A DNA stretch of 64,000 bases from a virus, in IMG/VR virus record IMGVR_UViG_3300033146_003848, positions 1 through 64,000 of that record; one strand, given 5' to 3'. Numbering within the stretch: the stretch's first letter is position 1; every line of letters starts with the position of its first letter. The position numbers and the translations under genes are program-made. The notes beneath the pieces are model-generated. The model did not search any database. It saw only the letters and a program-made list of their open reading frames with translations, and was not told the DNA's origin. Positions 6,692 to 59,500 of the stretch are shown here, piece after piece.

Positions 6692-7315
6692 TTAAAAAAT
6701 TGTATTATCTATTTCAATATCTATTTCATCATCAGATGTCGCTAGAATAGTACTCATACCTAAGAATGTGAACTTTTTATTATCCCATTCAATATTTATC
6801 CCTCTAGTGCTATCAAATAACACTGTTTCGCCAACTTCTATTCCAAAGTCATCATATTTACCATTAGTAGTAAATCGTCCTCTACCTTTCCTCAAAACAA
6901 TTGCTTTATCTTGTCTTACTCCTTGTGATGCTAGAATAATACCTCCAGCACTTTCTGTTTTATTCTCGGCTTTCACACATAACAAAACATCACTAATAGG
7001 TATCAACTGATTATTTTCATCTATTTTCGCTAAAATTTCAGGTTCCTTGATTATAAATAAAGTTTTACCTTCAATTTCAATTTCTTCTCCAGAATGTTTA
7101 GCAAAAAGAACATGATCACCAGTTTTTACATCAAAGGGAAATAGATGATCTAAAATCACATTTCCTTTACCTAAACTTATAATCTTCCCTTCATAATGTT
7201 GTTCGTGATTTTCATTCACATTAAAGTAAATTCCACCAGGACTAACACGATCTCTCTTAAACTTCTCAATAATAATTTTATCACCTATCGCTCTCAACTG
7301 CATATCATCCCTCAC
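6692..7315 (-). CDS. Tandem (double-domain) GroES-like co-chaperonin
   Basis: A 207-residue protein containing two GroES-type beta-barrels. Domain 1 (about 6-95): L-R-A-I-G-D-K-I-I-I-E, S-P-G-G-I-Y-F mobile-loop region, G-K-I-I-S-L-G-K-G, V-K-T-G-D-H-V-L-F. Domain 2 (about 103-190): D-V-L-L-C-V, S-A-G-G-I-I-L, A-I-V-L-R-K-G-R-G, V-G-E-T-V-L-F-D. Normal GroES is about 97 residues; T4 gp31 (111 residues) replaces GroES during capsid protein folding. A double-barrel form is known from chloroplast Cpn20. Both G-G-I mobile-loop motifs are retained, so both halves could contact a GroEL ring. It probably helps fold the major capsid protein (inference). Read from an extended -10 promoter near 7334. 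Confidence 0.85.
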   Translation of the reverse strand: MRDDMQLRAIGDKIIIEKFKRDRVSPGGIYFNVNENHEQHYEGKIISLGKGNVILDHLFPFDVKTGDHVLFAKHSGEEIEIEGKTLFIIKEPEILAKIDENNQLIPISDVLLCVKAENKTESAGGIILASQGVRQDKAIVLRKGRGRFTTNGKYDDFGIEVGETVLFDSTRGINIEWDNKKFTFLGMSTILATSDDEIDIEIDNTIF

Positions 7316-29577: not shown

Positions 29578-29606
29578 TTGACAATTCCAATTTAATGTGA
29601 TATATT
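29578..29606 (+). promoter_or_regulatory. Early/middle promoter, TTGACA-N17-TATATT
   Basis: TTGACA 29578-29583, 17-bp spacer ending in TGA, TATATT 29601-29606. Near-perfect. The 184-bp leader up to the thioredoxin start holds no clear gene. Confidence 0.85.
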
Positions 29607-38695: not shown

Positions 38696-39724
38696 TCAAC
38701 TCGGTTTTATTCCTATTTGAGATTCGATAATCCATTTATGCATTTGTCTCACAATAAAGTCATTGACAAGATCTCGATTCATTTTCTTAGGTAATGTTGT
38801 GGTTTTTTTCAATTCCATCATCTTTGATTCTAAGTCATCTGAATATTGAATGATATTAGTTAAGTGCCATTTACCTAATTTTATGTCTAAAATTTCAGAA
38901 GCATTAGTTAGTGGAAATGTAATTTGTTGATTTTCTAATAATTCGATTCCCTCATGAAGAAGTCTAATTAGATGTGATGCGAATTTTGTATCATATCCAT
39001 AATTTAAAATTAGGTCTTGTCTATTGGTTCCATTATCAACTCGTTCTTTCAATTTAACAATCGCAGATTTAATCATATCGTTCCATGGGAGATTAATATC
39101 TCCAATTGTTAAAAATTGATCATGAAATCTAAATGAATGTCCTTTGGAGTTATCATTATCTTTAGCCCATGAGTTAAGAATGGCAAGAAACTCTTTGTTT
39201 TCTCTTAAATGATCAATCGTTCTTTTGGGATCTAAACTCAAAAAGAAATCTAAAATGATATTCATTTCTTTGAATTTATCTTTTTTGATTATCATTTTAT
39301 GCTTTTGGCTCTTAGCATATCCTAAGAATCGTCCAACTAATCCTCGATGTAAAAATATATCTCTATTAGCAATTAAGTCTTTACCATAATCATTGATAAA
39401 TATTATACTGTCTTTCGATGGATACAGTAATTCTAATATATTAGGATTATTTTGCATCGCTAACATACAAAATTTTTGATATGCGTAAAATTTACGATCG
39501 ATGGACTCTTTTGTGTTTTTACCAAAAGCATCTTTAAATTGAATTGAAAAATCAACTTCTTCTACTTTATCTATTCCCAATATATATCTAATGGATGGTA
39601 AAAATATCCCTAATTTATCTTCATCTGAATTGGGAGTAGCAGTTCCATACAATCTGCTTCCCGAAATTACTTCTAATATTTTACCATTTTCAGCAACAGT
39701 TTCAACATCATTTAATGTTCGCAT
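38696..39724 (-). CDS. RlaP-type nucleotidyltransferase (polymerase beta superfamily)
   Basis: 342 residues. G-S-R-L-Y-G-T-A-T-P-x-S-D-E-D (22-36), with the two Asp of the G-S ... D-x-D metal site, followed by G-Y-D-T-K-F-A-S-H-L-I-R-L-L-x-E-G (about 245-261), is the signature of the RlaP/YcgL family of predicted RNA-repair nucleotidyltransferases. It probably adds nucleotides to RNA ends or proteins. T4 uses RNA repair (Pnkp, Rnl1) against tRNA-cleaving host defences, so an anti-defence role is plausible (inference). Confidence 0.8.
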   Translation of the reverse strand: MRTLNDVETVAENGKILEVISGSRLYGTATPNSDEDKLGIFLPSIRYILGIDKVEEVDFSIQFKDAFGKNTKESIDRKFYAYQKFCMLAMQNNPNILELLYPSKDSIIFINDYGKDLIANRDIFLHRGLVGRFLGYAKSQKHKMIIKKDKFKEMNIILDFFLSLDPKRTIDHLRENKEFLAILNSWAKDNDNSKGHSFRFHDQFLTIGDINLPWNDMIKSAIVKLKERVDNGTNRQDLILNYGYDTKFASHLIRLLHEGIELLENQQITFPLTNASEILDIKLGKWHLTNIIQYSDDLESKMMELKKTTTLPKKMNRDLVNDFIVRQMHKWIIESQIGIKPS

Positions 39725-42203: not shown

Positions 42204-42476
42204 CTACTTGTTGTTTTTCATATTATTCATCATCATCATCATCATCATAGGATCAATATTTGATTCTCCAGACTTAGAATTCATCATCATCATCATCATC
42301 ATAGGATCAATATTTGATTCTCCAGACTTAGAATTCATCATCATCATCATCATCATAGGATTATTCATCATATTAGCACTCCTTGATTTTTTACCTAGCA
42401 TTGAATTAGCCACACCATTGACTAATTTATTCTCTACATTTCGTTGAACTTTTTCATTAAAACTTTTCGCTTTCAT
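42204..42476 (-). CDS. Poly-methionine repeat protein, 90 aa
   Basis: I choose ATG 42476 after GGAGAAAATT. The N-terminal half is basic (MKAKSFNEKVQRNVENK). The C-terminal half has three runs of seven Met, the second and third each preceded by the 11-residue N-S-K-S-G-E-S-N-I-D-P, then N-N-M-K-N-N-K. The 54-bp DNA repeat is exact. Poly-Met stretches make flexible, hydrophobic surfaces (as in the SRP54 M domain), can bind copper and scavenge oxidants. Function unknown; clearly related in composition to the next two Met-rich proteins. Confidence 0.75.
   Translation of the reverse strand: MKAKSFNEKVQRNVENKLVNGVANSMLGKKSRSANMMNNPMMMMMMMNSKSGESNIDPMMMMMMMNSKSGESNIDPMMMMMMMNNMKNNK
42229..42360 (-). 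repeat. 54-bp tandem repeat with ATG runs (CAT on + strand)
   Basis: Three runs of seven CAT triplets (Met on the minus strand) separated by two identical linkers; period 54 bp. Both the triplet runs and the tandem unit are prone to length change. Confidence 0.9.
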
Positions 42477-42477
42477 A

Positions 42478-42867
42478 TTAATTTTCTCCATTCATACTGT
42501 TTGCGAGTAACCACATTTTTAAAAACGAATTCGACTTAGATCTTGATGAATCCATCATCGCACACTCTTTATCTTTTTCCATTGGAGCATATCGTTTTAA
42601 TAAATCGCTCATCATTCTAGATTTTAAAATTTCAATCGAATTATCATCATGTAGTTTCATAACCATATCGCTTCCATACAAAACTCGTCTAGGAATCGTC
42701 GATATTGAATTTGAATTTGGATCACAAATGACTAATAATTGAGTTTTTATACCTAATTCATTTAACTTCGATATTTCTCGATGAATATTATCCATTGAGA
42801 CTTGAATATCTTCTGCCTTCAAAAGATGATTCAGACTAGTTGCATCATTTATCTTTATTGACATCAT
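42478..42867 (-). CDS. Hypothetical protein, 129 aa, in the Met-rich cluster
   Basis: Start ATGATG at 42867 after GAGGAGAAGT. Helical N-terminus, central strand (TQLLVICDPNSNS) that resembles the Met-rich cluster's SH3-like segments only loosely, and C-terminus with several Met (CAMMDSS, FLKMWLLANSM). Not recognised. Overlaps neighbours by 1 and 23 bp. Confidence 0.65.
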   Translation of the reverse strand: MMSIKINDATSLNHLLKAEDIQVSMDNIHREISKLNELGIKTQLLVICDPNSNSISTIPRRVLYGSDMVMKLHDDNSIEILKSRMMSDLLKRYAPMEKDKECAMMDSSRSKSNSFLKMWLLANSMNGEN

Positions 42868-43057
42868 TACTTCTCCTCATATTTTGCATCATTTGCATCA
42901 TCATCATCATTTTGAACATCTTTCGATTCGAACTCTTAGATGAAGAATTCGAACTAGCAAATGAACTCATGACACTATCAATTGTACTTCTTGGACTCGA
43001 AGAGTTAATATCATCAAACTTAGTAATTGCATCAATCAAATTAAAATCTATTATCAT
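42845..43057 (-). CDS. Small Ser/Met-rich protein, 70 aa
   Basis: Start after TAAGGAGG. Ser-rich centre (SSPRSTIDSVMSSFASSNSSSKSSN), then R-K-M-F-K-M-M-M-M-M-Q-M-M-Q-N-M-R-R-S. It is the second of three neighbouring proteins with a Met run. The basic residues flanking the Met run suggest RNA or membrane contact (inference). Confidence 0.65.
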   Translation of the reverse strand: MIIDFNLIDAITKFDDINSSSPRSTIDSVMSSFASSNSSSKSSNRKMFKMMMMMQMMQNMRRSNDVNKDK

Positions 43058-43111
43058 AAGTTCCTCCTTAAATAAGAGGGAGAATGAACTCCCTCTAGTA
43101 ATTACAAAAAA

Positions 43112-43921
43112 CTATTCAGCAGAGTTTTCAGTGTCGACTTTAGTTGCTGTCTTTTTGGCAGTTCTTTTAGTGGATTTTTTAGCAGGTTTAGCAGGTTTTG
43201 CTGTTGATGCTTCAGGAAACATTGCAACAAAAGGATTTGCATTATTGTTTCCATTTCCTCCCATCATGTTCATCATCATCATCATCTCAAATGGATCCAT
43301 GCTAGAATCACCACTCATCATCAAGAAAGGCAACATTTTGTTAATATCTGTTCCATCATTATTCCCATTGAAGATTCCACTCATCATGTTCATCATCATT
43401 ATGTCGCCCATTTGGCCTCCCATAATATCATCTCCACTATCTCCCATCATCAACATCATCATCATTGGATTACTCATAATATTAGACATATCCATATTCT
43501 CAGGATTTCCATCTTGAATTCCCATTAGAGAAAAAAGTGAGATGACTTTAGTGAAGAAAAGCATATTTCCCATTATAGATTTAATAGGATGAACAACAAT
43601 AGTTTCATTTGCACCAAAATCATACGCTTCAATTCTTCCATCAGGTCTAATTTCACTTGCAAAAAGAACTTTCTCTTTATGAAGAATGATATCTCCAACA
43701 TTAACTTGATTCACTGGCATTTTGAAGAATGAATCTCCTCCTGATTTAAATACCATATCTGCAACATTTGTTACAGAACAAGTCTTTGGTTCAAAAGTGA
43801 TCCAACTACCTTCTGAATCTCTTACTGCAATTCCTTTTGGACTCATAGCAAATCTACCATCAGATAGTTTACCGAATTCCATGTTGCCAAACATTTTACT
43901 CAAATTCATTTTTCCAAACAT
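43112..43921 (-). CDS. Met-rich phage protein with beta-barrel N-terminus and Lys/Ala tail
   Basis: 269 residues, start after AAAGGAG. Residues 1-130: beta-rich, with G-K-L-S-D-G-R-F-A-M-S, V-N-V-G-D-I-I-L-H and E-A-Y-D-F-G-A-N-E-T-I, like repeated SH3-type barrels. Residues 140-225: low-complexity Met/Asn/Gly/Asp with M4-L-M-M and M5-N-M-M runs. C-terminus: K-P-A-K-P-A-K-K-S-T-K-R-T-A-K-K-T-A, a histone H1-like basic tail. I have seen similar Met-rich proteins in unannotated large phage genomes; function is unknown. Two promoters upstream, so possibly well expressed. Confidence 0.75.
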   Translation of the reverse strand: MFGKMNLSKMFGNMEFGKLSDGRFAMSPKGIAVRDSEGSWITFEPKTCSVTNVADMVFKSGGDSFFKMPVNQVNVGDIILHKEKVLFASEIRPDGRIEAYDFGANETIVVHPIKSIMGNMLFFTKVISLFSLMGIQDGNPENMDMSNIMSNPMMMMLMMGDSGDDIMGGQMGDIMMMNMMSGIFNGNNDGTDINKMLPFLMMSGDSSMDPFEMMMMMNMMGGNGNNNANPFVAMFPEASTAKPAKPAKKSTKRTAKKTATKVDTENSAE

Positions 43922-46536: not shown

Positions 46537-46758
46537 TTAATCTTCTCCTAGCATCAAAAACACCTTCCCATTCTCATTCGTCCATAAAAAGAATGATAGT
46601 TTCAATAATTTCTTTAAATCATTAACATCTAAATCTAAATAGTCCACATCAACTACTTGAAGATATCCTGCTCCAAAAAAATCAGACGTAAATGTTATTT
46701 TACCAGAATATTTATCAATGATATCACAGGCTATCTTTAAATTATATGGATCAATCAA
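46537..46758 (-). CDS. Hypothetical protein, 73 aa
   Basis: Start overlaps the stop of the adenylyltransferase gene. Acidic alpha/beta protein (ITFTSDFFGAGYLQVVDVDYLDLDV) ending in LMLGED. Family unknown. Last gene of the NAD-linked transcript from promoter 47992. Confidence 0.6.
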   Translation of the reverse strand: MIDPYNLKIACDIIDKYSGKITFTSDFFGAGYLQVVDVDYLDLDVNDLKKLLKLSFFLWTNENGKVFLMLGED

Positions 46759-47543
46759 CTGTTTCTCCTCTCAGTTATTTCTTCTCGAATTCTAGTAATT
46801 TCCTCATGAAATCCTTGAACATCTTTAATATTTGTTGCACGAGTCATTTTTGCAAATATTTGAGTAATATCATCTTCCAGTTGATCGATAGCACTTTCAC
46901 ACCAATATGGAGTAATATTATCAGTTAACTCAACGAAATGCGGCTCATCGTTATTAGGATGATAACATCTTGTAACTAAACTCCCTGACGTTTTCATAAA
47001 CTTACATTGCTTACATAGATTCATTTCATAATCATCTCGCTTCGCTTTTTCCCAATATTTCATGATTAATTCGAATGACTTTGCTCCAACTAAATGACTA
47101 ATTTTCTCATTTCGATGAAGTCTATCACGAATATCAGTGGCTGAAATTCCCAACTCATTTCGATCCACAATATCATATTGGAATTTATAAGATGTATACA
47201 TCAGCAGATCAGTCATTTCTCCTCCGTAGAATGTTACATCTATTGGAGTTGCATTTTTTTTCCAAAGAGTAATTTGATCCCACAAGGAAGTTATCCAAAT
47301 ATCTAAATCATTCATGTCAGCCAACGGAGCAACTCTTAATTTTGGGAACTCTCGTTGGATAATCTTACGTCTCTCTTGATATTTAAACCAAAACATACTC
47401 TCATCAAAAATATGAGAATTCGCACTCCCTATTAATAATAAACAATTATTAATACCATATTTTTCAATCATTATATTAATAGTATTAATGTGTCCTCTAT
47501 GAAGGGGATTAAATTTACCTACAATTGCCGCAAGGTCTTTCAC
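46755..47543 (-). CDS. Nicotinamide/nicotinate mononucleotide adenylyltransferase-like protein
   Basis: I place the start at GTG 47543: GGAG lies 6 bp upstream and GTG overlaps the previous stop (TAGTG). 262 residues. Nucleotidyltransferase motif G-K-F-N-P-L-H-R-G-H (9-18; typical G-x-F-x-P-x-H-x-G-H) and I-S-A-T-D-I-R (about 133-139; typical I-S-x-T-x-x-R) are both intact. This pair is the hallmark of NadD/NadR/NadM adenylyltransferases. After about 170 it has a Cys-rich tail (CKQCK ... C ... C) that may bind zinc, not usual in NadD. It would turn NaMN (or NMN) into NaAD (or NAD). With PncA, PncB and NadE it completes a pathway. Confidence 0.8.
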   Translation of the reverse strand: MKDLAAIVGKFNPLHRGHINTINIMIEKYGINNCLLLIGSANSHIFDESMFWFKYQERRKIIQREFPKLRVAPLADMNDLDIWITSLWDQITLWKKNATPIDVTFYGGEMTDLLMYTSYKFQYDIVDRNELGISATDIRDRLHRNEKISHLVGAKSFELIMKYWEKAKRDDYEMNLCKQCKFMKTSGSLVTRCYHPNNDEPHFVELTDNITPYWCESAIDQLEDDITQIFAKMTRATNIKDVQGFHEEITRIREEITERRNS

Positions 47544-47953
47544 TATTTTCTCCATTCGTTAGGTGATTCATTTATCAGCAGTGTTATTGTTACATTCACA
47601 TTATTATGATGTGCTCCTGTTCTCAAATCGAAAAGTTCAGATTGTAAATTTTCATTTTTAGATAGTAATAAATTGAAATTATCAATATATATATCTGTAT
47701 AATCTCCACTCTCAATGAAATTAACTATCTTATCTAAACTTTCAGAATCTTCTACCCAACACTCACAAACAGTTCCACAACTAGGTTTACCATACAAGTC
47801 ACATAATCTTTCTATAGACTCTTCAGTGGTTACAAATAAACTTCTCTTTTCATTTTGGGCTAAGAATGATGAATACAACTCTTTAGTTTTACCACTATGA
47901 GCAGTATTACTTATTTGAATGAATGTTGGTACATTTGTTTTTTTAAAATTCAT
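47543..47953 (-). CDS. Small P-loop protein, 136 aa
   Basis: I choose ATG 47953, 6 bp after GAGGAA; a TTG further upstream is less likely. Near the N-terminus I-S-N-T-A-H-S-G-K-T (about 13-22) is a Walker A-like loop (x-x-x-x-G-K-T), and D-I-Y-I-D-N-F near 95 is a Walker B-like strand, so it may bind ATP. Short for a full ATPase. It sits between NadE and the adenylyltransferase gene, overlapping the latter, so a link to NAD metabolism or to thymidine-kinase-like functions is possible. Family not recognised. Confidence 0.5.
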   Translation of the reverse strand: MNFKKTNVPTFIQISNTAHSGKTKELYSSFLAQNEKRSLFVTTEESIERLCDLYGKPSCGTVCECWVEDSESLDKIVNFIESGDYTDIYIDNFNLLLSKNENLQSELFDLRTGAHHNNVNVTITLLINESPNEWRK

Positions 47954-47978
47954 AATCATTTCCTCATTTAAATTAATA

Positions 47979-48040
47979 ATCAACTAGAACTATTATATCA
48001 CATGTAGTTAACAATGTCAATAATAATAGTTCTAGTTGAT
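47979..48040 (-). repeat. 18-bp perfect inverted repeat bracketing a promoter
   Basis: Left arm 47979-47996 and right arm 48023-48040 are exact reverse complements (ATCAACTAGAACTATTAT) separated by 26 bp. One arm overlaps the -10 box of the promoter at 47992-48020 and the other lies just upstream of its -35 box. It may be a pair of operator sites or an RNA hairpin. See findings. Confidence 0.85.
47992..48020 (-). promoter_or_regulatory. Consensus promoter TTGACA-N17-TATAAT
   Basis: Minus strand: TTGACA (48020-48015), 17-bp spacer ending in TGA, TATAAT (47997-47992). This is the best sigma-70-type match in the window. It drives the P-loop and adenylyltransferase genes. Confidence 0.85.
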
Positions 48041-48050
48041 CCACATGAAT

Positions 48051-48899
48051 TTAGTGATAGTATGGAATTTGTTGTTTAAACATACTCTTATTTACTTGAT
48101 TACATATCTTAACTATAGTTTCAACTGAAACTCCACTTTCATTAGATATTCTTTCTTGATATTCAGCATCATCCGCTAATTTTAGCCATATTTCACTGTT
48201 TGGTAGAAGAGAATCCTCGATTGTTACCATCACTCTATCGAGATCCCAGTAAGAGAATCCTAATTCTTTTTCATCAGTTTGATTTCCCCAAAGTTCAGCA
48301 GAAGGAGTTTTATTAACTATGGTCGATGGAACATCTAATGCTCTAGCCATCTCAAACACTTCAGTTTTCGAATGTCTTAATATTGGAGCATATGATCCAA
48401 TATTATCTCCACCAACAGTATAATATCCTAACCAATATTCACTCAGATTACTATTCTCACTTACAAGTCCATTGACAACTTTTGACCAATCCATGAGAGC
48501 AATCATTCTAGATCTAGCACATACATTTCCCTTTCTCACATATATATCATCTCTATTATCGTGAACTCTCAAATAAGTATTAAAATATCCATCTACCATC
48601 CCATTAATGCTTTGAGTGAACATTTTCACTCCAAAGTGACTACATAGATTCTGAGCATCACTTTTCGAAGCATTAGTTGAAATACTTTCATATGGCAAAC
48701 TCAATGCTATAACATTTTCACGTCCCAAGGCTCTCACAGTTAACGCAAGAACCGTCGCAGAATCAATGCCACCAGAAACACCAATCACCGCCTTTGTGAA
48801 TCCTAAATCATCAAACACTTCTTTAATAAATTGAACGCTATTTTCTATAGCATCATCCACTTCAAATTCTCGCTTCAAAAAATACTCTTCTCTATTCAT
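48051..48899 (-). CDS. nadE: NAD synthetase
   Basis: I choose ATG 48899 after GGAGAGTCT. 282 residues, the usual size of bacterial NH3-dependent NadE. PP-loop S-G-G-I-D-S (42-47); L-P-Y-E-S-I-S-T-N-A-S-K-S-D-A; the S-E-N-S-N-L-S-E-Y-W-L-G-Y-Y-T-V-G-G-D (typical G-T-x-N-x-x-E-x-x-x-G-Y-x-T-x-x-G-D) and K-T-P-S-A-E-L-W; all hallmarks present. It amidates NaAD to NAD using ATP. Last step of the Preiss-Handler route. Lies in the minus operon with the DUF2059-like pair; PncB is 1.3 kb upstream. Confidence 0.92.
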   Translation of the reverse strand: MNREEYFLKREFEVDDAIENSVQFIKEVFDDLGFTKAVIGVSGGIDSATVLALTVRALGRENVIALSLPYESISTNASKSDAQNLCSHFGVKMFTQSINGMVDGYFNTYLRVHDNRDDIYVRKGNVCARSRMIALMDWSKVVNGLVSENSNLSEYWLGYYTVGGDNIGSYAPILRHSKTEVFEMARALDVPSTIVNKTPSAELWGNQTDEKELGFSYWDLDRVMVTIEDSLLPNSEIWLKLADDAEYQERISNESGVSVETIVKICNQVNKSMFKQQIPYYH

Positions 48900-49302
48900 T
48901 AGACTCTCCATTTGCATTATTTTCCATAAGCATTTTTTGCCAACTTATATTTAATCCGGGAATCAAAGATATTATTTGAGTTTTAGTGAACGCATTGAGT
49001 TCAGCAGTAACATTAACAACTCGTTCGATGAGTGAGTGTCCAATATTTGGATCTTCATTCAATATCATTTCCAATTCCACATCACTAAAGGGTTTACCAT
49101 AAATATCAACAGCGGAATTCATAAACTTATCAATTAATAGTTGAGGTAAAACAGTACCTAGTATGCGATTTTTGTTTGCAGTAGAAAATTCAATATTATT
49201 AGTAGACAATGAAGTTTCTAAAACATTCTTAAACGTTTTCTTTATAGATTTTATATAATTCGCTTTATCTAGAATTTTCATTAATAATTCATTTCTATTC
49301 AT
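48892..49302 (-). CDS. DUF2059-like protein (paralogue of the next gene upstream)
   Basis: I choose ATG 49302 after AAGGAG. 136 residues, all helical. Contains I-Y-G-K-P-F-S-D-V-E-L-E ... N-I-G-H-S-L-I-E, which resembles DUF2059 (I/V-Y-x-x-x-F-[ST]-x-x-E-L-x-x-[IL]-x-x-F-x-x-[ST]-x-x-G-x-x-[IL]). Lacks a signal peptide, unlike most DUF2059 proteins. Overlaps NadE by 8 bp. Confidence 0.6.
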   Translation of the reverse strand: MNRNELLMKILDKANYIKSIKKTFKNVLETSLSTNNIEFSTANKNRILGTVLPQLLIDKFMNSAVDIYGKPFSDVELEMILNEDPNIGHSLIERVVNVTAELNAFTKTQIISLIPGLNISWQKMLMENNANGESNE

Positions 49303-49696
49303 TGGAATCTCCTTCATCTAAAATATTTTGAATTTCTTCTAAAATAGTTGGCATTGCAGGACTCATACGGTCATGAGTCAATTTATCAACGAGTGCAGTT
49401 ATCCGAGGAGTTTTCTCAATGATCGATTTTCCTAAAGGACTATCATTGAATTCAACTATAGATTGCAACTCATCATCATCAAACGAATCACTATATATTT
49501 TAGTAACATCTTCAATAAATTCAGGAGTCAATGTTCTTGAAACAATATGATTCAATATCTTTATTCGTTTTTCGGGAGATATTGTGATTTCAGATGCATT
49601 TATCATCTGAGACAGAATGCCTTCAAATGATGTTCTAAGTTTGGTTTCATATTCTAATTGAGTCAATATGGTTCGCACTAAATCTATCTTACTCAT
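49295..49696 (-). CDS. DUF2059-like protein
   Basis: 133 residues; ATG 49696 overlaps the upstream stop (TAATG). K-I-Y-S-D-S-F-D-D-D-E-L-Q-S-I-V-E-F-N-D-S-P-L-G-K-S-I-I-E-K (about 65-94) matches the DUF2059 core well. The pair 49295/48892 arose by duplication. Function of DUF2059 is unknown. Confidence 0.65.
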   Translation of the reverse strand: MSKIDLVRTILTQLEYETKLRTSFEGILSQMINASEITISPEKRIKILNHIVSRTLTPEFIEDVTKIYSDSFDDDELQSIVEFNDSPLGKSIIEKTPRITALVDKLTHDRMSPAMPTILEEIQNILDEGDSNE

Positions 49697-49854
49697 TATC
49701 TATCTCCTAATAATTTATATCTATTAAATAGATGTTTATAATGTTGAGAATTCACTTGATATCCTCCATCACTCTTTTCATTCTCCATCTTTCTCATACG
49801 TTCTTTAATTGCCTTTAAAGTCATTCTATTGACTTTCACTTTTTTTTCTACCAT
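49696..49854 (-). CDS. Small basic protein, 52 aa
   Basis: ATG 49854 after a perfect AAAGGAGG at good spacing; stop TAA overlaps the next ATG (TAATG). Very basic N-terminal helix (MVEKKVKVNRMTLKAIKERMRKM) and a C-terminal H-Y-K-H-L-F-N-R-Y-K. Likely binds nucleic acid or a host protein. Function unknown. Confidence 0.75.
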   Translation of the reverse strand: MVEKKVKVNRMTLKAIKERMRKMENEKSDGGYQVNSQHYKHLFNRYKLLGDR

Positions 49855-49887
49855 GCTAATACCTCCTTTGGTTTTTGCATTAAATTA

Positions 49888-50115
49888 TTATTCCCATGGG
49901 ATTTCGGAATTAATCACATCAACGATATCATCTTTCCATGAATACGGAACTCCTTTTGGCCAGAACCGTATGTCCCATGGTCCCAACACTCGTTGGTTAC
50001 ACATTGGTTCATTATATCCAGTTGAATGAATAGTTACTAACCAAGGCTTTTCATTTAATAATAAAATCACTTCATGTTCATCCACATGATTAATTTCAAT
50101 CGTTGTTAACTTCAT
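49888..50115 (-). CDS. Hypothetical protein, 75 aa, Trp/Pro-rich
   Basis: I choose ATG 50115 after GGAGAGATT. Beta-rich (EVILLLNEKPWLVTIHS, VLGPWDIRFWPKG) with four or five Trp, ending N-S-E-I-P-W-E. No family recognised. It lies between PncB and the small basic protein. Confidence 0.65.
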   Translation of the reverse strand: MKLTTIEINHVDEHEVILLLNEKPWLVTIHSTGYNEPMCNQRVLGPWDIRFWPKGVPYSWKDDIVDVINSEIPWE

Positions 50116-50149
50116 AATCTCTCCGACATTTAATATCAACTTAATAATT

Positions 50150-50158
50150 AATATATCA
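50150..50158 (-). promoter_or_regulatory. Extended -10 promoter, TGATATATT
   Basis: Minus strand TGATATATT (50158-50150), about 35 bp before the start at 50115; weak -35. Confidence 0.45.
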
Positions 50159-50184
50159 AACTATCAAGAATTTCTCATTTAAAA

Positions 50185-51378
50185 TTAACCACAATTGAAA
50201 TATCTCTGTATAAATTGCAAGAAGTTTTTATCAATACACATGGACTTGATAGGTTCATCGCTATTTTTCGCTACTGGAAATCCATTAATGCGTTGTAATT
50301 TGATAACTATACTTGTCGGAGTCACTGAATCAAAATCATGACTCAAATGCGTTCCAATTCCATAAGATGTTTTTATTTTCCCATAAAAATGTTTAAATAA
50401 TTCAATAGATCGTTTCATTGTTAAGGCATCACTGAATACAATTGTTTTATTCAGTGTATCTAGATTTAATGATTTATAATGTCTCAAAGTTTTTTCTCCA
50501 AACTCAATTGGACATCCACTATCATGTCGAACTCCATCGTATAATTTAGATAATTTTAATCCAAAGTCCTTATAAAATTGATCTGTGGATATTGTATCAG
50601 TTAACGCTATTCCTAAATTCCCATCATAAAATTCAGCCCACACATTCAACATATCTCTCTGAAAGGTTGCTATAGGATGCAATGCTTGTCCAGCCATAAT
50701 ATATTCATGAGCAAACGTTCCTATAATGGGAATATTATTTGTGAGTCCAATATAAACGTTAGATGTTCCGTTGAAGTTTTTATTATTTCCTATAATATTC
50801 AATCTCTTATTAAATTCTGTTACCATTTCATTTTGCCATTTGAAATTAATTCGTCGTCTTGTCCCAAAATCTGCAAATTTAAAATCAGGATCATTCAAAT
50901 CATGAATCATTTGAATTTTTGCATCTAATTTTTTGATGCCCTCATTATATAAAATATCCCAATTATATAAAGACTGATGCTTAGTTACAATTTCCGAAAC
51001 TATCGCTAAGATCATTGTTTCATAAAGAATAGTTCTTGACCATAATCCTTTAATTTGAATTTTCAATTGTCCATCTCTATCCACACTAACTTCAACTTCA
51101 TCTTCAGGATGAAATTTAAAATCAAGTAGGAAATTAACATACTCTTTTTTTAATAGAGGCAACTTTTCCAATAATAAAGAATATTCCTCAGTTGTAAGTC
51201 TTAAATTGCCCAATTTATTTATCTCTTCTCTAATCGGAGATAAATATTTTGCTAAATTAACATCAACATCTCTACACTTAAAGTGATATTCAGCAACTTC
51301 CTTTGGATACTTAAAGAACACTAATTGTCCCATTGTTAATTTATAGTAATCTAAATCTAATAATGATTTTATTATCAT
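50185..51378 (-). CDS. pncB: Nicotinate phosphoribosyltransferase
   Basis: 397 residues, the size of E. coli PncB (400). L-L-D-L-D-Y-Y-K-L-T-M-G (start), F-A-D-F-G-T-R-R-R (about 164-172), G-T-S-N-V (about 199), G-T-F-A-H-E (about 214; the phosphorylated His of PncB corresponds to this H-E), G-I-A-L-T-D-T (about 249), R-H-D-S-G-x-P (about 280) and S-Y-G-I-G-T (about 333). All landmarks present. It makes NaMN from nicotinate, PRPP and ATP. Second step of the Preiss-Handler route. Confidence 0.95.
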   Translation of the reverse strand: MIIKSLLDLDYYKLTMGQLVFFKYPKEVAEYHFKCRDVDVNLAKYLSPIREEINKLGNLRLTTEEYSLLLEKLPLLKKEYVNFLLDFKFHPEDEVEVSVDRDGQLKIQIKGLWSRTILYETMILAIVSEIVTKHQSLYNWDILYNEGIKKLDAKIQMIHDLNDPDFKFADFGTRRRINFKWQNEMVTEFNKRLNIIGNNKNFNGTSNVYIGLTNNIPIIGTFAHEYIMAGQALHPIATFQRDMLNVWAEFYDGNLGIALTDTISTDQFYKDFGLKLSKLYDGVRHDSGCPIEFGEKTLRHYKSLNLDTLNKTIVFSDALTMKRSIELFKHFYGKIKTSYGIGTHLSHDFDSVTPTSIVIKLQRINGFPVAKNSDEPIKSMCIDKNFLQFIQRYFNCG

Positions 51379-51387
51379 AATAATCTC

Positions 51388-51888
51388 CTAATGATTCATT
51401 GTTTCTAATATTTTTGTGATAATATGATGACACTCATTCATAGTGGGCATTTTATATATATCAACATTATTGTTTTTATTATTCGATATATACCAAATCT
51501 CTAACGAAACAGTCTCATCAACATCCAATAAATCATTATTGGATTCAATCTTACACCATGCCCATTGAATTTGATTGAGATTGATGATAGCATTGTTAAT
51601 TAGCATAGGATTCAAATCAGAACTCTTAGTAGTAAGCATTACGACCTTTTCAATATCAATCGGAGTTGTTACTATATTCGACGTAGTCTCTAAATGTTTT
51701 TGAACCACATCTTTAAATTCAGATGATAATTTACCTGATGATATCGTTTTATCGATATACGAACTAACCTCATCGTTTGCCATCTCAACCACATACTCTC
51801 GACTCAATAATGCCCATATAGTAACGATAAACATTATCACATTGATAATTGCTAATCCACGAATTACAGACATTGAGATGTTCATCAT
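51388..51888 (-). CDS. Membrane-anchored hypothetical protein, 166 aa
   Basis: ATG 51888 (or 51885) after TAGGAG, overlapping the PncA stop. One N-terminal membrane segment (IRGLAIINVIMFIVTIWALL), the rest is outside the membrane core: a helical region then a beta-rich part with W-A-W-C-K-I-E. A single-pass protein, N-in/C-out likely. It lies between pncA and pncB; a role in substrate uptake is only a guess. Confidence 0.65.
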   Translation of the reverse strand: MMNISMSVIRGLAIINVIMFIVTIWALLSREYVVEMANDEVSSYIDKTISSGKLSSEFKDVVQKHLETTSNIVTTPIDIEKVVMLTTKSSDLNPMLINNAIINLNQIQWAWCKIESNNDLLDVDETVSLEIWYISNNKNNNVDIYKMPTMNECHHIITKILETMNH

Positions 51889-52514
51889 TTGACTCCTAAA
51901 CCAGCAGTTTTGATTAGTTTAACTCCATGAGACACCCACTTATCTATCGCAGAAATGCTCTTTACTTCTTTTATCGCATCGGTAATTACTATCACATCTA
52001 CATCTCGAAGTTTCGTGAATTCCATAACAATTTCATCCACACAATAATCAGTAGCAACACCGTAAACATAAATTCTTTCAGGATGAATTGCCGAAACTAT
52101 TCTGCTAGTATTGATGTTACCTTTGAATGCATTACGATGATCCTTTCTTATGACTATATTCCGACTCAATAGTATATTTAAAATCTCTCGATTAGAATAT
52201 TCTTTTTCCCATTCGCAAATCGAAAGACTAGCATTTAAATATGTTGCAACTTCTGGGATAAATTCCGCTAATTCTGTATTTTGCATCCCATGCTTTGGGA
52301 AAGTATTTACAAAATCAGGAGTATTAGATATCTCCTCAGTATCCTCATTATGCCAATCTTGAGTATTAATGACTTGAATTCCTCTTCGATTAAAGTATTT
52401 AGTTAATCGATTCAAATTAGGAATAATGTCTTCGGCTTTTGGAACATATAGTCCACCATTCGTATACATAAAGTCTCCTGTGGTATCCACATTCCACGCA
52501 ATTGTCTTTTTCAT
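51885..52514 (-). CDS. pncA: Nicotinamidase (isochorismatase-like cysteine hydrolase)
   Basis: 209 residues (E. coli PncA 213). Catalytic triad: Asp 10 in N-V-D-T-T-G-D-F, Lys 124 in I-R-K, Cys 158 in Y-G-V-A-T-D-Y-C-V. Metal ligands Asp 53 and His 55 in D-W-H-N and His 75 in P-K-H-G-M-Q-N-T. All match nicotinamidases. It hydrolyses nicotinamide to nicotinate and feeds PncB. First step of the phage's NAD salvage set. Start ATG 52514 after AAAGGAGATTTAAG. Confidence 0.92.
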   Translation of the reverse strand: MKKTIAWNVDTTGDFMYTNGGLYVPKAEDIIPNLNRLTKYFNRRGIQVINTQDWHNEDTEEISNTPDFVNTFPKHGMQNTELAEFIPEVATYLNASLSICEWEKEYSNREILNILLSRNIVIRKDHRNAFKGNINTSRIVSAIHPERIYVYGVATDYCVDEIVMEFTKLRDVDVIVITDAIKEVKSISAIDKWVSHGVKLIKTAGLGVK

Positions 52515-53016: not shown

Positions 53017-53045
53017 AATATATCACATTGCTGATATAATGTCAA
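53017..53045 (-). promoter_or_regulatory. Early/middle promoter, TTGACA-N17-TATATT
   Basis: Minus strand: TTGACA (53045-53040), 17-bp spacer ending in TGA, TATATT (53022-53017). It probably reads through pncA-pncB. Confidence 0.85.
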
Positions 53046-55640: not shown

Positions 55641-55739
55641 ATGTTTATGTGGTTATTTGGGATAATGACAGGGTTAGTATTTATTTTAGTATATATTACC
55701 TTTCCACCAAGTGTGAATTATTTACGACGAAAAAAATAA
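55641..55739 (+). CDS. Plus-strand membrane microprotein, 32 aa, within the minus block
   Basis: ATG 55641 after CGGAGG (9 bp); MFMWLFGIMTGLVFILVYITF..., then P-P-S-V-N-Y-L-R-R-K-K, stop TAA 55737-55739. One membrane segment (residues 3-21) with a positive C-terminal tail, so N-out/C-in or a short tail-anchored type. Late-type box upstream. Its last 18 bp overlap the 3' end of the DHH gene (55722). A small late membrane peptide could be holin- or spanin-related or regulate lysis; not shown. Confidence 0.65.
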   Translation: MFMWLFGIMTGLVFILVYITFPPSVNYLRRKK

Positions 55740-56729
55740 TTTTTTGTTAGTAGATACATATTTAAATTCACGAACTCGCATTCCACCAGCACCTCGATGT
55801 CCACCACCATTATAATAATTAAAAATTGGAGTCAAATCAACATCTTCCTTTTCAGAATAAAGACTTACCGACCATAAATTCTTTTTGCCTGAATACACAA
55901 AACATCCAACATAATCATGTTTATCCCAATCAACAGAATCTTCAAAAATCAAACTTCCACCAATTCCTTGATTTAAAAATAACCCTAATCCAATATGTTC
56001 AAATCCTGAAATTTGCCCTTCGAATCCATATGCATTCACTAATTGACGATTTCTCTCCTTGTGACTAGCATATATTAGTGCTCCATCATAATCAAAATCC
56101 TCAATCATTTCCGTGATTTTATCGGAAGAATCACATGCTTCATCGATCAAATTCCAGAACTTTAATCCTGCTTCAGTTGATGGATCAGTATTTAATGCAG
56201 AAAACGCAAAATTCATATTCAAAGCCTCTGTCCATAATATAGAATCACTTTTATCGAATCTATCGTATATATCAATACAATCAACAAATCGTTGTAAATT
56301 ATCCCAATATGTTTCACCTAACTTTTTTCCCAATTCAGTACGATTTCTTTTAATCCAATTGAAAGTATGACGACATCCTGCAAATTCTTCTCCTCTATCT
56401 CCAGGAACATCGAATCCTTCCATTTCATCTAACACAGTAATATGATGATCCATCCACAGCATCTTACCTTTAACTTTATTTTTAACATATTCCATATCTT
56501 CCTTTGGGAAAGAGCAATCTACTAAAATAACCATATCTTGAGGTTCAATTTGATTCTCATTAATATAAAATCCATAATTATATCTATGCATCATAACTCT
56601 AAAATCTTTAAATGGATTCTTCACAAAGGCATTTTCAAATGCCCACTTAATTAACCATCCTGATGTAAATCCATCCATATCGCTTTGATGAAAGTAACAA
56701 TGAATCACATTCTGTCTCGCTTTTCTCAT
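55722..56729 (-). CDS. DHH/DHHA1-family phosphoesterase
   Basis: I choose ATG 56729 after AAAGGAGAATAA. 335 residues. H-x-S-D-M-D-G-F-T-S-G (about 14-24), V-D-C-S-F-P, M-D-H-H-I-T (D-H-H, about 92-95) and the DHHA1 glycine motif N-G-G-G-H-R-G-A-G-G (near the C-terminus). DHH enzymes degrade nano-RNA, cyclic dinucleotides or 3'-5' linkages (NrnA, GdpP, RecJ). It resembles the exopolyphosphatase/NrnA-like group. Substrate unknown. Next to a second, different DHH gene. Confidence 0.85.
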   Translation of the reverse strand: MRKARQNVIHCYFHQSDMDGFTSGWLIKWAFENAFVKNPFKDFRVMMHRYNYGFYINENQIEPQDMVILVDCSFPKEDMEYVKNKVKGKMLWMDHHITVLDEMEGFDVPGDRGEEFAGCRHTFNWIKRNRTELGKKLGETYWDNLQRFVDCIDIYDRFDKSDSILWTEALNMNFAFSALNTDPSTEAGLKFWNLIDEACDSSDKITEMIEDFDYDGALIYASHKERNRQLVNAYGFEGQISGFEHIGLGLFLNQGIGGSLIFEDSVDWDKHDYVGCFVYSGKKNLWSVSLYSEKEDVDLTPIFNYYNGGGHRGAGGMRVREFKYVSTNKKLFFSS

Positions 56730-56730
56730 T

Positions 56731-57753
56731 TTATTCTCCTTTGTTCTCAGTTTCATAATCCTCTTTCAGAATTAATCTAAATAATTGCTCACAAGTGATT
56801 TCCCAAAATTTATTCTTGAGTGAATCGGTAACCATATTACTCCAAACATTCAATGGAACCTTTGCTCCACCCTTTTCTATTTTACCCCCTCCAAAATCAC
56901 CAAATATATTTTGCATTAAATCTTTAACATCAACTGTAGTATTAATGGTTCGAATTGAAACTTCTAATGTATCATTATCAGTTATACAAAATATAACTGT
57001 TGTAGAAACGGTCTCCATTCTCAAATAATCCTCGGCTAAAATAGCAATAACATCTCTTTGTGATCTTGGAATATATCCTACTCCTCCTACAAAAATCCCA
57101 TTTTTCTCCATGAAATTATTCTTATCTTTTAGTAGATTTCGTTTCTCAAACACATATCTCGGAACTGGATAATTCATAATTCGTTGAACTTTTTCTTTAT
57201 TCATATGATGAATTAAACTTTCATATGCTTTAAAATCTTCTGCTATCATTGATTCGGATAATAAATCTTTAGTGTCAGTTCTTATCCCTAAGAGTAATGC
57301 TGTAGCAATATCTTCATGTAAATCCCATTCAATACCTAGAGAATTAAGAATTTCCCACATGATAGTTGAACATGCTCCATATTTAGGTTCATTTATTACA
57401 TATTCACAATTTTTAACTGAATTACTATGATGATCGATAATCATAAAAGCAGTATCTATACCTGAATTCTTAGGAGTACAATCAACACAAATATTTTTCC
57501 CTTGTAAACTAGAATCTCCAATCTTAGTTAAAGATAGTGCTAATGATATTTGCATAGTTTTATTTTGAGGATGACTAATTTCTCCAGTATAAAACATTTC
57601 ATTATCAATTTGACAACTTTTTAAATACTCTTGTAATGCAAATGCAGTTGCCATACTGTCTGGATCAGGCATATAATGTAATATAATATTTACATTATCT
57701 CCATCATCCTTGATCTTTTGAATTGCAAGATTAAAAGTTTCAATATTTGTCAT
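56731..57753 (-). CDS. DHH/DHHA1-family phosphoesterase, NrnA-like
   Basis: I choose ATG 57753 after TTGGAGATTAAT. 340 residues. M-P-D-P-D-S-M-A-T-A-F-A-L (about 27-39), C-V-D-C-T, I-D-H-H-S (about 104-108) and a C-terminal F-G-G-G-K-I-E-K-G-G-A (DHHA1; here K in the usual G-G-H position). Members degrade short RNA (nanoRNase) or cyclic dinucleotides. Note the H-to-K change in the G-G-G-H motif, which may alter substrate binding. Starts 2 bp after the upstream gene's stop region and is followed by the sister gene. Confidence 0.82.
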   Translation of the reverse strand: MTNIETFNLAIQKIKDDGDNVNIILHYMPDPDSMATAFALQEYLKSCQIDNEMFYTGEISHPQNKTMQISLALSLTKIGDSSLQGKNICVDCTPKNSGIDTAFMIIDHHSNSVKNCEYVINEPKYGACSTIMWEILNSLGIEWDLHEDIATALLLGIRTDTKDLLSESMIAEDFKAYESLIHHMNKEKVQRIMNYPVPRYVFEKRNLLKDKNNFMEKNGIFVGGVGYIPRSQRDVIAILAEDYLRMETVSTTVIFCITDNDTLEVSIRTINTTVDVKDLMQNIFGDFGGGKIEKGGAKVPLNVWSNMVTDSLKNKFWEITCEQLFRLILKEDYETENKGE

Positions 57754-57754
57754 A

Positions 57755-58075
57755 TTAATCTCCAAGTATTATTTTTCCATTGCTCAGTGTAAATTTAGAA
57801 AGTTGAGTTTTTATTAGTTCTCTATTGGACTCCAACGATTGATTTATTTGAGTTAGATTCCCTTTTAAGTCTCGGATATCATTCTCATAACAAAAGGAAA
57901 CTAATTGATGTAAATTCCCAAAATAACTTATTTCTTTCCATTTCTCCTCACAAAGATCTCCTTTATACTTTCCTTTTTTAATGATATGTTCAGGGACTTT
58001 TTCTTCTAAAATAAAATTATATTTATCCGATGTAAATCTAAAATGGTCATTGATGTTGATGTATTCTCTACTCAT
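57755..58075 (-). CDS. Hypothetical protein, 106 aa
   Basis: Start after GGAGAAGAAA. N-terminal Y-I-N-I-N-D-H-F-R-F-T-S-D-K-Y-N and a Lys-rich centre (KKGKYKGDLCEEKWKE) suggest a small alpha/beta domain. No family recognised. First gene of the DHH operon, behind the extended -10 at 58113. Confidence 0.65.
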   Translation of the reverse strand: MSREYININDHFRFTSDKYNFILEEKVPEHIIKKGKYKGDLCEEKWKEISYFGNLHQLVSFCYENDIRDLKGNLTQINQSLESNRELIKTQLSKFTLSNGKIILGD

Positions 58076-58838: not shown

Positions 58839-58955
58839 ATGAATTCGTGTAGATATTGTATTCATTTATCAATTGAGAAGGAACCATTTGATGACATTAA
58901 CACTTTAGAAATTAATACTAAATGCTCAAAGTTCATATTAAAAGAGAAACAATGA
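58839..58955 (+). CDS. Small Cys protein, 38 aa
   Basis: ATG 58839, 8 bp after the previous stop; stop TGA 58953-58955 overlaps the HAD start (ATGA). M-N-S-C-R-Y-C-I-H-L near the N-terminus and a third Cys near 29 suggest zinc binding. It resembles the C-x2-C protein at 30128. The ribosome binding site is weak. Confidence 0.5.
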   Translation: MNSCRYCIHLSIEKEPFDDINTLEINTKCSKFILKEKQ

Positions 58956-59500
58956 AATTATTATTTTTAGATATAGATGGAGTATTAAATTCACATTACT
59001 CCTTAGATGAACTAATTAAGATTGATGCTCCAGAGATATTATATAATGCTCCATTTCAAGAGCATGTTAAATGGTTAAATTTTATAATTGAACAAACGAA
59101 TGCTCAAGTGGTCATATCATCAACATGGAGACAAAATAATAATTTCTATCTTCATATGATTTTAGCGTTAGCGGGATATAAATATGATATTTTTGGACAT
59201 ACACCTAGAATGAGAGGAGTTGAGCGAGGAGATGAAATTAAAATGTTCATAGAGTGGATATCAGAAGATGGAATTTCTCAATATAAAGAGACTTATATTG
59301 AATATTTTAATTTCAATCGAGACAATAAAGATATAAATTTCAATGTAGATTCATTTGTAGTTTTAGATGATGATACTGATATGAGTGCAGTGAGAGATAA
59401 TTTTGTACTAGTGAATAATTATTTAGGATTAAATGAAGAAAATGCAAAGTTAGCAATATCAATTTTAAACAAAGAGGGAAGTCATGAAGAAAGATGTTAG
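58952..59500 (+). CDS. HAD-superfamily phosphatase-like protein
   Basis: I choose ATG 58952, which overlaps the stop of the 38-residue gene. 182 residues. L-D-I-D-G-V-L-N-S (6-14; catalytic Asp pair D-x-D) and V-V-I-S-S-T-W-R (about 46-53, motif II Ser/Thr) plus a late V-L-D-D-D-T-D (motif IV acidic pair) are present. It fits the HAD domain seen in RNA-repair (Swiss army knife) proteins. Possible 3'-phosphatase of RNA ends. Substrate unknown. Confidence 0.75.
   Translation: MKLLFLDIDGVLNSHYSLDELIKIDAPEILYNAPFQEHVKWLNFIIEQTNAQVVISSTWRQNNNFYLHMILALAGYKYDIFGHTPRMRGVERGDEIKMFIEWISEDGISQYKETYIEYFNFNRDNKDINFNVDSFVVLDDDTDMSAVRDNFVLVNNYLGLNEENAKLAISILNKEGSHEERC

Follow-up and report, generated by a model that had tools for sequence, protein, structure and literature searches.

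Does a phage that encodes four NAD-related enzymes within a few kilobases carry a complete salvage route of its own, and how would such a route relate to those already described in phages? The question is raised by a window of 64,000 nt (the whole stretch of DNA analysed, to which coordinates refer unless given for the contig) that is part of the 146,140-base record IMGVR_UViG_3300033146_003848. With a tail sheath, T4-type topoisomerase II subunits, a DNA polymerase and an SbcC-like nuclease subunit among its hallmark genes, the record is, on its gene content, that of a contractile-tailed, T4-like phage. An end repeat was not found in the pieces of the record examined; the record may therefore be incomplete, and absences from it constitute weak evidence. 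The four genes are understood, at a probability of roughly 0.8, as a phage pathway salvaging nicotinamide to NAD by the deamidated (Preiss-Handler) route. The initial annotation had placed the four enzymes on the minus strand, and family models or solved-structure matches recover each of them at essentially the same positions:

51885-52514, minus strand: pncA, predicted nicotinamidase (isochorismatase superfamily), 209 aa; PF00857, solved-structure matches and invariant residues
50185-51378, minus strand: pncB, predicted nicotinate phosphoribosyltransferase of the E. coli type, 397 aa; TIGR01514, NF003704, 3os4 and 1yir
48051-48899, minus strand: nadE, predicted ammonia-dependent NAD synthetase, about 282 aa; TIGR00552, 2e18 and SGGIDS loop
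46755-47555, minus strand: NadM-like NMN/NaMN adenylyltransferase, 266 aa; PF01467, 1f9a and AlphaFold model

PncA passes the superfamily model in the family-model search (PF00857, 56.7 against a cut-off of 27) and is headed in its solved-structure matches by nicotinamidases, the best being 1ilw/1im5 at 3e-16. It scores below the equivalog cut-off of PRK11609 and is thus considered divergent. Asp10, Asp53, His55, His75, Lys124 and Cys158, which we take to be the nicotinamidase catalytic triad together with the metal ligands, are invariant in all 74 aligned PncA proteins (74/74), so that the protein is predicted to be a nicotinamidase retaining the catalytic Asp, Lys and Cys and the metal ligands. 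PncB, the sole PF04095 match in the 146-kb record (3e-63), scores 402.7 bits with TIGR01514 (cut-off 269.6), also passes the curated cut-off of NF003704 and matches its solved homologues 3os4 and 1yir across most of its length; it is accordingly assigned as a probable nicotinate phosphoribosyltransferase.

NadE is matched by PF02540 (3.7e-59), by TIGR00552 (186.7, cut-off 63.7) and, over most of its length, by the solved structure 2e18 (E 2e-37). The protein scores higher with the ordinary NAD synthetases 2e18, 1xng and 3p52 than with 3fiu, which we take to be the Francisella enzyme, an NMN synthetase-type NadE. Its SGGIDS loop is intact and, lacking a glutaminase domain, it should use ammonia; its nearest relatives being ordinary ammonia-dependent NadE proteins, it is predicted to act as NAD synthetase on NaAD. 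The open reading frame begins at 48917, and the ATG at 48899, preceded by a GGAG site, appears to be the likelier start, as the initial annotation had it.

The adenylyltransferase, which starts from ATG 47555 or GTG 47543, is the weakest of the four enzymes by sequence and lies barely over the PF01467 cut-off. Its best sequence match among solved structures is the archaeal NMNAT MJ0541 (1f9a, 2e-6). An AlphaFold model built on a 26-row alignment (mean pLDDT 77; an alignment-free model with pLDDT 48.5 was discarded) has archaeal NMNAT or NadM proteins as all of its 12 best PDB matches, ranked ahead of phosphopantetheine adenylyltransferases and NadD. The motifs GKFNPLHRGH and ISATDIR are preserved, and the claim of intact catalytic motifs thus holds for these as it does for the SGGIDS loop and the PncA residues. 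The C-terminal third (46755-47020, minus strand) is an extension of about 85 residues with cysteines (CKQC...C...C) that is missing from the phage relatives in the alignment. By family and fold the protein is an NMNAT of NadM-like kind. Of the proposed path from nicotinamide through nicotinate, NaMN and NaAD to NAD, the pathway assignment is supported; the sequence does not say which of the two final steps comes first, the NadM family working on both NMN and NaMN.

The set recurs in other phages. An alignment search of IMG/VR returned 269 PncB relatives, the best 80 of which were fetched and gave 67 distinct loci; alignment queries were needed, as single-protein searches of viral_contigs with PncB or the adenylyltransferase returned no relatives. 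Co-occurrence in phages, proposed in the initial annotation as a check, is found: all four genes lie within 10 kb in 27 of the 67 loci (best 80 of 269), 15 more have NadE and PncA without the adenylyltransferase within 10 kb of PncB, and PncB, NadE and PncA thus occur together in 42/67. Seven of the 67 phage PncB loci have no partner inside 10 kb. Partners in the phage loci share the strand of PncB almost without exception (130/133; PncA 50/50, NadE 48/49, adenylyltransferase 32/34). In the bacterial control, NadE and PncA are both near PncB in 3 of 80 loci having the same PncB type; the difference to the phage loci is large (Fisher p ~1e-15, uncorrected for relatedness among loci), and the profiles, being built from phage proteins, may pick up bacterial ones a little less readily. 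Viewed from NadE, PncA is nearby in 12/16 loci with PncB compared to 10/54 without it. Flanking genes confirm a phage context for several IMG/VR loci, and among public phage records all four genes are present in the 735-kb huge phage LR756501, two human-gut contigs and the Sinorhizobium phage Phosso. Records labelled Acinetobacter phage MD-2021a (L014, CAKLQH020000008) were dropped because they look like bacterial contigs, with ribH, thiL, nusB and pgpA as neighbours; Xanthomonas phage X1 was left out of the count, its record matching NadE and not PncB at 1e-5.

The loci resemble one another in content far more than in build. There are 16 gene orders among 33 four-gene loci, which argues for selected content and against one inherited operon. 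The adenylyltransferase slot holds NadD-type enzymes in L002 and L003, NadM-like ones in the window, L087 and L143, and a NadR-type enzyme with a kinase domain in L009; in two loci (L033:15661-16902 and L043:1859-3235) an NMN/NaMN adenylyltransferase is fused to NadE in a single open reading frame. NadE itself is a long protein of 550-726 aa in L036 and about nine other loci, and that of L036 (11189-13369) has an extra carbon-nitrogen hydrolase domain, hence is probably glutamine-dependent. Constancy of content, while order and parts vary, fits selection for the whole pathway. In the PncB tree, in which long branches make the topology uncertain, the phage proteins cluster with few label changes (four, at least two of them forced).

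Two other readings of the locus concern what the proteins act on. The last steps might be swapped as in Francisella: NadE, as an NMN synthetase, would first turn NaMN into NMN, from which the NadM-like enzyme would make NAD directly; the adenylyltransferase of the window is indeed of the NadM type, a family using NMN, and in Francisella the partner of NadM is a NadE that has become an NMN synthetase (PMC3376133). However, the NadE of the window is closer to ordinary NAD synthetases than to 3fiu, other phages hold NadD-type enzymes in the slot, NMNAT-NadE fusions occur, Acinetobacter NadM functions with an ordinary NadE and one archaeal NadE is an ordinary NAD synthetase (PMC3376133), and we consider the swapped order unlikely. 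Less likely still is that the genes are chance neighbours, some of them working on other substrates; the PncA-like protein might, for instance, hydrolyse a different amide, or the adenylyltransferase take a different nucleotide. These two proteins are the weakest assignments, and several small genes are interspersed among the four, yet dozens of phages have these families grouped on a single strand, in varying order and far above the bacterial background, with the adenylyltransferase and NadE steps even joined into one protein in two phages.

The deamidated salvage reading is consistent with how the genes are arranged. Transcribed on the minus strand in the order pncA, pncB, nadE and adenylyltransferase, they form two closely packed units, pncA-pncB-nadE and that of the adenylyltransferase, in which junctions overlap by 4 to 13 bases at several points and ribosome sites are clear. 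Promoter-like sites and interspersed small genes are as follows:

53017-53045, minus strand: promoter-like site TTGACA-N11-ATGTGATATATT, exact motif copy upstream of the pncA-pncB-nadE unit
51388-51888, minus strand: uncharacterised 166-aa protein between pncA and pncB, 4-bp overlap with pncA
48892-49696, minus strand: two tandem paralogous small proteins directly before nadE, inside the NAD unit (mutual match about 4e-12)
47992-48020, minus strand: promoter-like site TTGACA-N11-ATGTGATATAAT, exact motif copy upstream of the adenylyltransferase unit
47543-47983, minus strand: small P-loop-like protein (SNTAHSGKT), 13-bp overlap with the adenylyltransferase start

The motif TTGACA-N11-ATGTGATATAWT has 10 matches with at most three mismatches in the window compared to 1.07 expected, and none of 100 shuffles reached as many. 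Two of its three exact copies in the window head the NAD units, and both adjacent units would thus appear to stand under host-like sigma-70 promoters. Sites of this class are at 29578-29606 (plus strand), 47992-48020 and 53017-53045 (both minus strand), besides weaker ones; a promoter pattern with a different spacer gave chance-level matches only. The P-loop-like protein gene is probably co-transcribed with the adenylyltransferase from a common promoter. The protein has no family match except a weak one to a topoisomerase PHROG (E 0.056) and no homologue among the fetched loci. The upstream member of the tandem pair (49298-49696) matches DUF2059 (PF09832, 1.7e-12), and no anti-NADase gene was identified adjoining the NAD genes.

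The set differs from the phage NAD routes already described. The KVP40-type salvage, called NARP2, is likewise phage-encoded, leads from nicotinamide and PRPP to NAD and has the same presumed purpose. It differs in using NadV/NAMPT with NadR or NadM in two steps through NMN, whereas the record of the window lacks a NAMPT_N match. The contrast to NadV-type sets drawn in the initial annotation extends to all 23 module-bearing records searched (22 four-gene, one PncB plus PncA; window record included), none of which matches NAMPT_N (PF18127), while the positive controls KVP40 and phi-ST2 were both detected. No support was found for the accompanying suggestion that the set bypasses defences because NAMPT-type NMN is avoided. 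NARP1, composed of Adps and Namat, restores NAD from nicotinamide in phages after NADase attack (PMC12774641). It proceeds from ADP-ribose pyrophosphate to NAD in two steps with Namat, a NAMPT-like ADP-ribose transferase, whereas PncB is the window's only PF04095 protein; there is no second one as Namat candidate in the contig, which may be incomplete. For Adps, which phosphorylates ADP-ribose and is a functional parallel of PRPP synthetase, the Pribosyltran_N model, which is not Adps-specific, has no match in the same possibly incomplete contig. Nor was a PRPP synthetase found in this record with that model, and PRPP is therefore probably drawn from the host; three of the 23 records do have one.

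Outside phages, the four activities are the same as in NAD salvage pathway I of P. aeruginosa, the operon of which presumably has the order pncA, pncB1, nadD2, nadE. That pathway is chromosomal and NrtR-repressed and has NadD2 as adenylyltransferase, whereas the window has a NadM-like enzyme. In a related Pseudomonas locus (L179), pncA, pncB and nadE adjoin. In P. aeruginosa, NatT, a toxin that depletes NAD, is far more toxic once pncB, nadD2 or nadE is deleted (PMC11535050); the same pathway there offsets NAD depletion and offers the closest working precedent. Among isolated phages, the jumbo phage Phosso (PV764938) has NadE, PncB, an NMN adenylyltransferase and a hydrolase of the isochorismatase family, all encoded inside about 6 kb of a single strand, in another gene order than the window and with an additional Nudix gene; its annotation is gene by gene, and the literature search found no paper describing its NAD gene set. 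Phage NAD synthesis is reported through NadV, NadM and NadR only in a survey covering 21,191 viral proteomes, which also states that NadV accompanies NadM in every NadM phage (PMC9503650); a jumbo-phage survey likewise names only these three. Single genes have been reported before, PncB in Atu_ph07 and nadE in snow viruses, and for Xanthomonas phage X1 pncB, nadM, nadD and nadE were reported together with NAMPT, with a defence role suggested. No description of a phage Preiss-Handler pathway was found in the searchable literature, most subscription papers being outside its scope. Given that the same set recurs in many large phages, it looks like a means, not described before, by which phages rebuild NAD.

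Going beyond the families, motifs and recurrence observed, flux through the pathway is expected from the established functions of the enzyme families. Both units would be transcribed from strong sigma-70-like promoters, probably early in infection. NADase defences of the host, with effectors of the TIR, SIR2 and similar kinds, would cleave NAD and thereby free nicotinamide, which PncA would convert into nicotinate and ammonia; PncB would make NaMN from nicotinate and host PRPP, adenylation of NaMN by the NadM-like enzyme would yield NaAD, and NadE would combine NaAD with ammonia to NAD, its use of ammonia balancing the release by PncA. The most likely benefit would be the restoring of NAD consumed in infection, especially by host NADase defences, with a role in defence proper standing at about even odds. 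A serious alternative, if somewhat short of an even chance, is a general metabolic supplement that raises NAD to serve redox enzymes and the replication of the phage and has no special anti-defence role: many cofactor genes are carried by large phages, and KVP40 NAD salvage has been proposed to help make viral progeny, as cited in PMC11097641. Two indirect points speak against it. An NAD-dependent DNA ligase was not found in the contig, so that one obvious NAD consumer is missing, and the same record has RNA-repair genes suggesting a phage that repairs host attack:

38696-39724, minus strand: RlaP
58922-59500, plus strand: HAD_SAK_2
contig 75952-77379, plus strand: RtcB
contig 81731-82831, plus strand: RNA ligase

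Deamidated salvage with a restorative role could be a third phage system for restoring NAD, next to NARP1 and the route through NadV. Large phages would have put this complete deamidated module together again and again from parts that can be exchanged, as a substitute for NadV, and it would undo NADase immunity by recycling the released nicotinamide. We give this wider proposal equal odds of being right or wrong. Its importance lies in a whole alternative NAD route in many large phages, NadV-free in the records tested and served by a NadM-like enzyme in the window. The four-gene set is a defined unit that can be tested against NADase defences such as Thoeris and DSR, and it raises the question why amidated salvage is used by some phages and deamidated salvage by others, perhaps matching the NAD metabolism of the host.

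Several features of the record lie apart from the NAD genes. Two DHH proteins are encoded side by side at 55722-57765, and a TelA (toxic anion resistance) family protein at contig 66138-67241, plus strand (L004:2138-3241). Proteins with long methionine-codon runs (MMMMMMM repeats) occupy 42204-43921 on the minus strand. Lastly, a 207-aa protein (6692-7315, minus strand) matches Cpn10 (GroES) in two stretches and is perhaps a doubled co-chaperonin.
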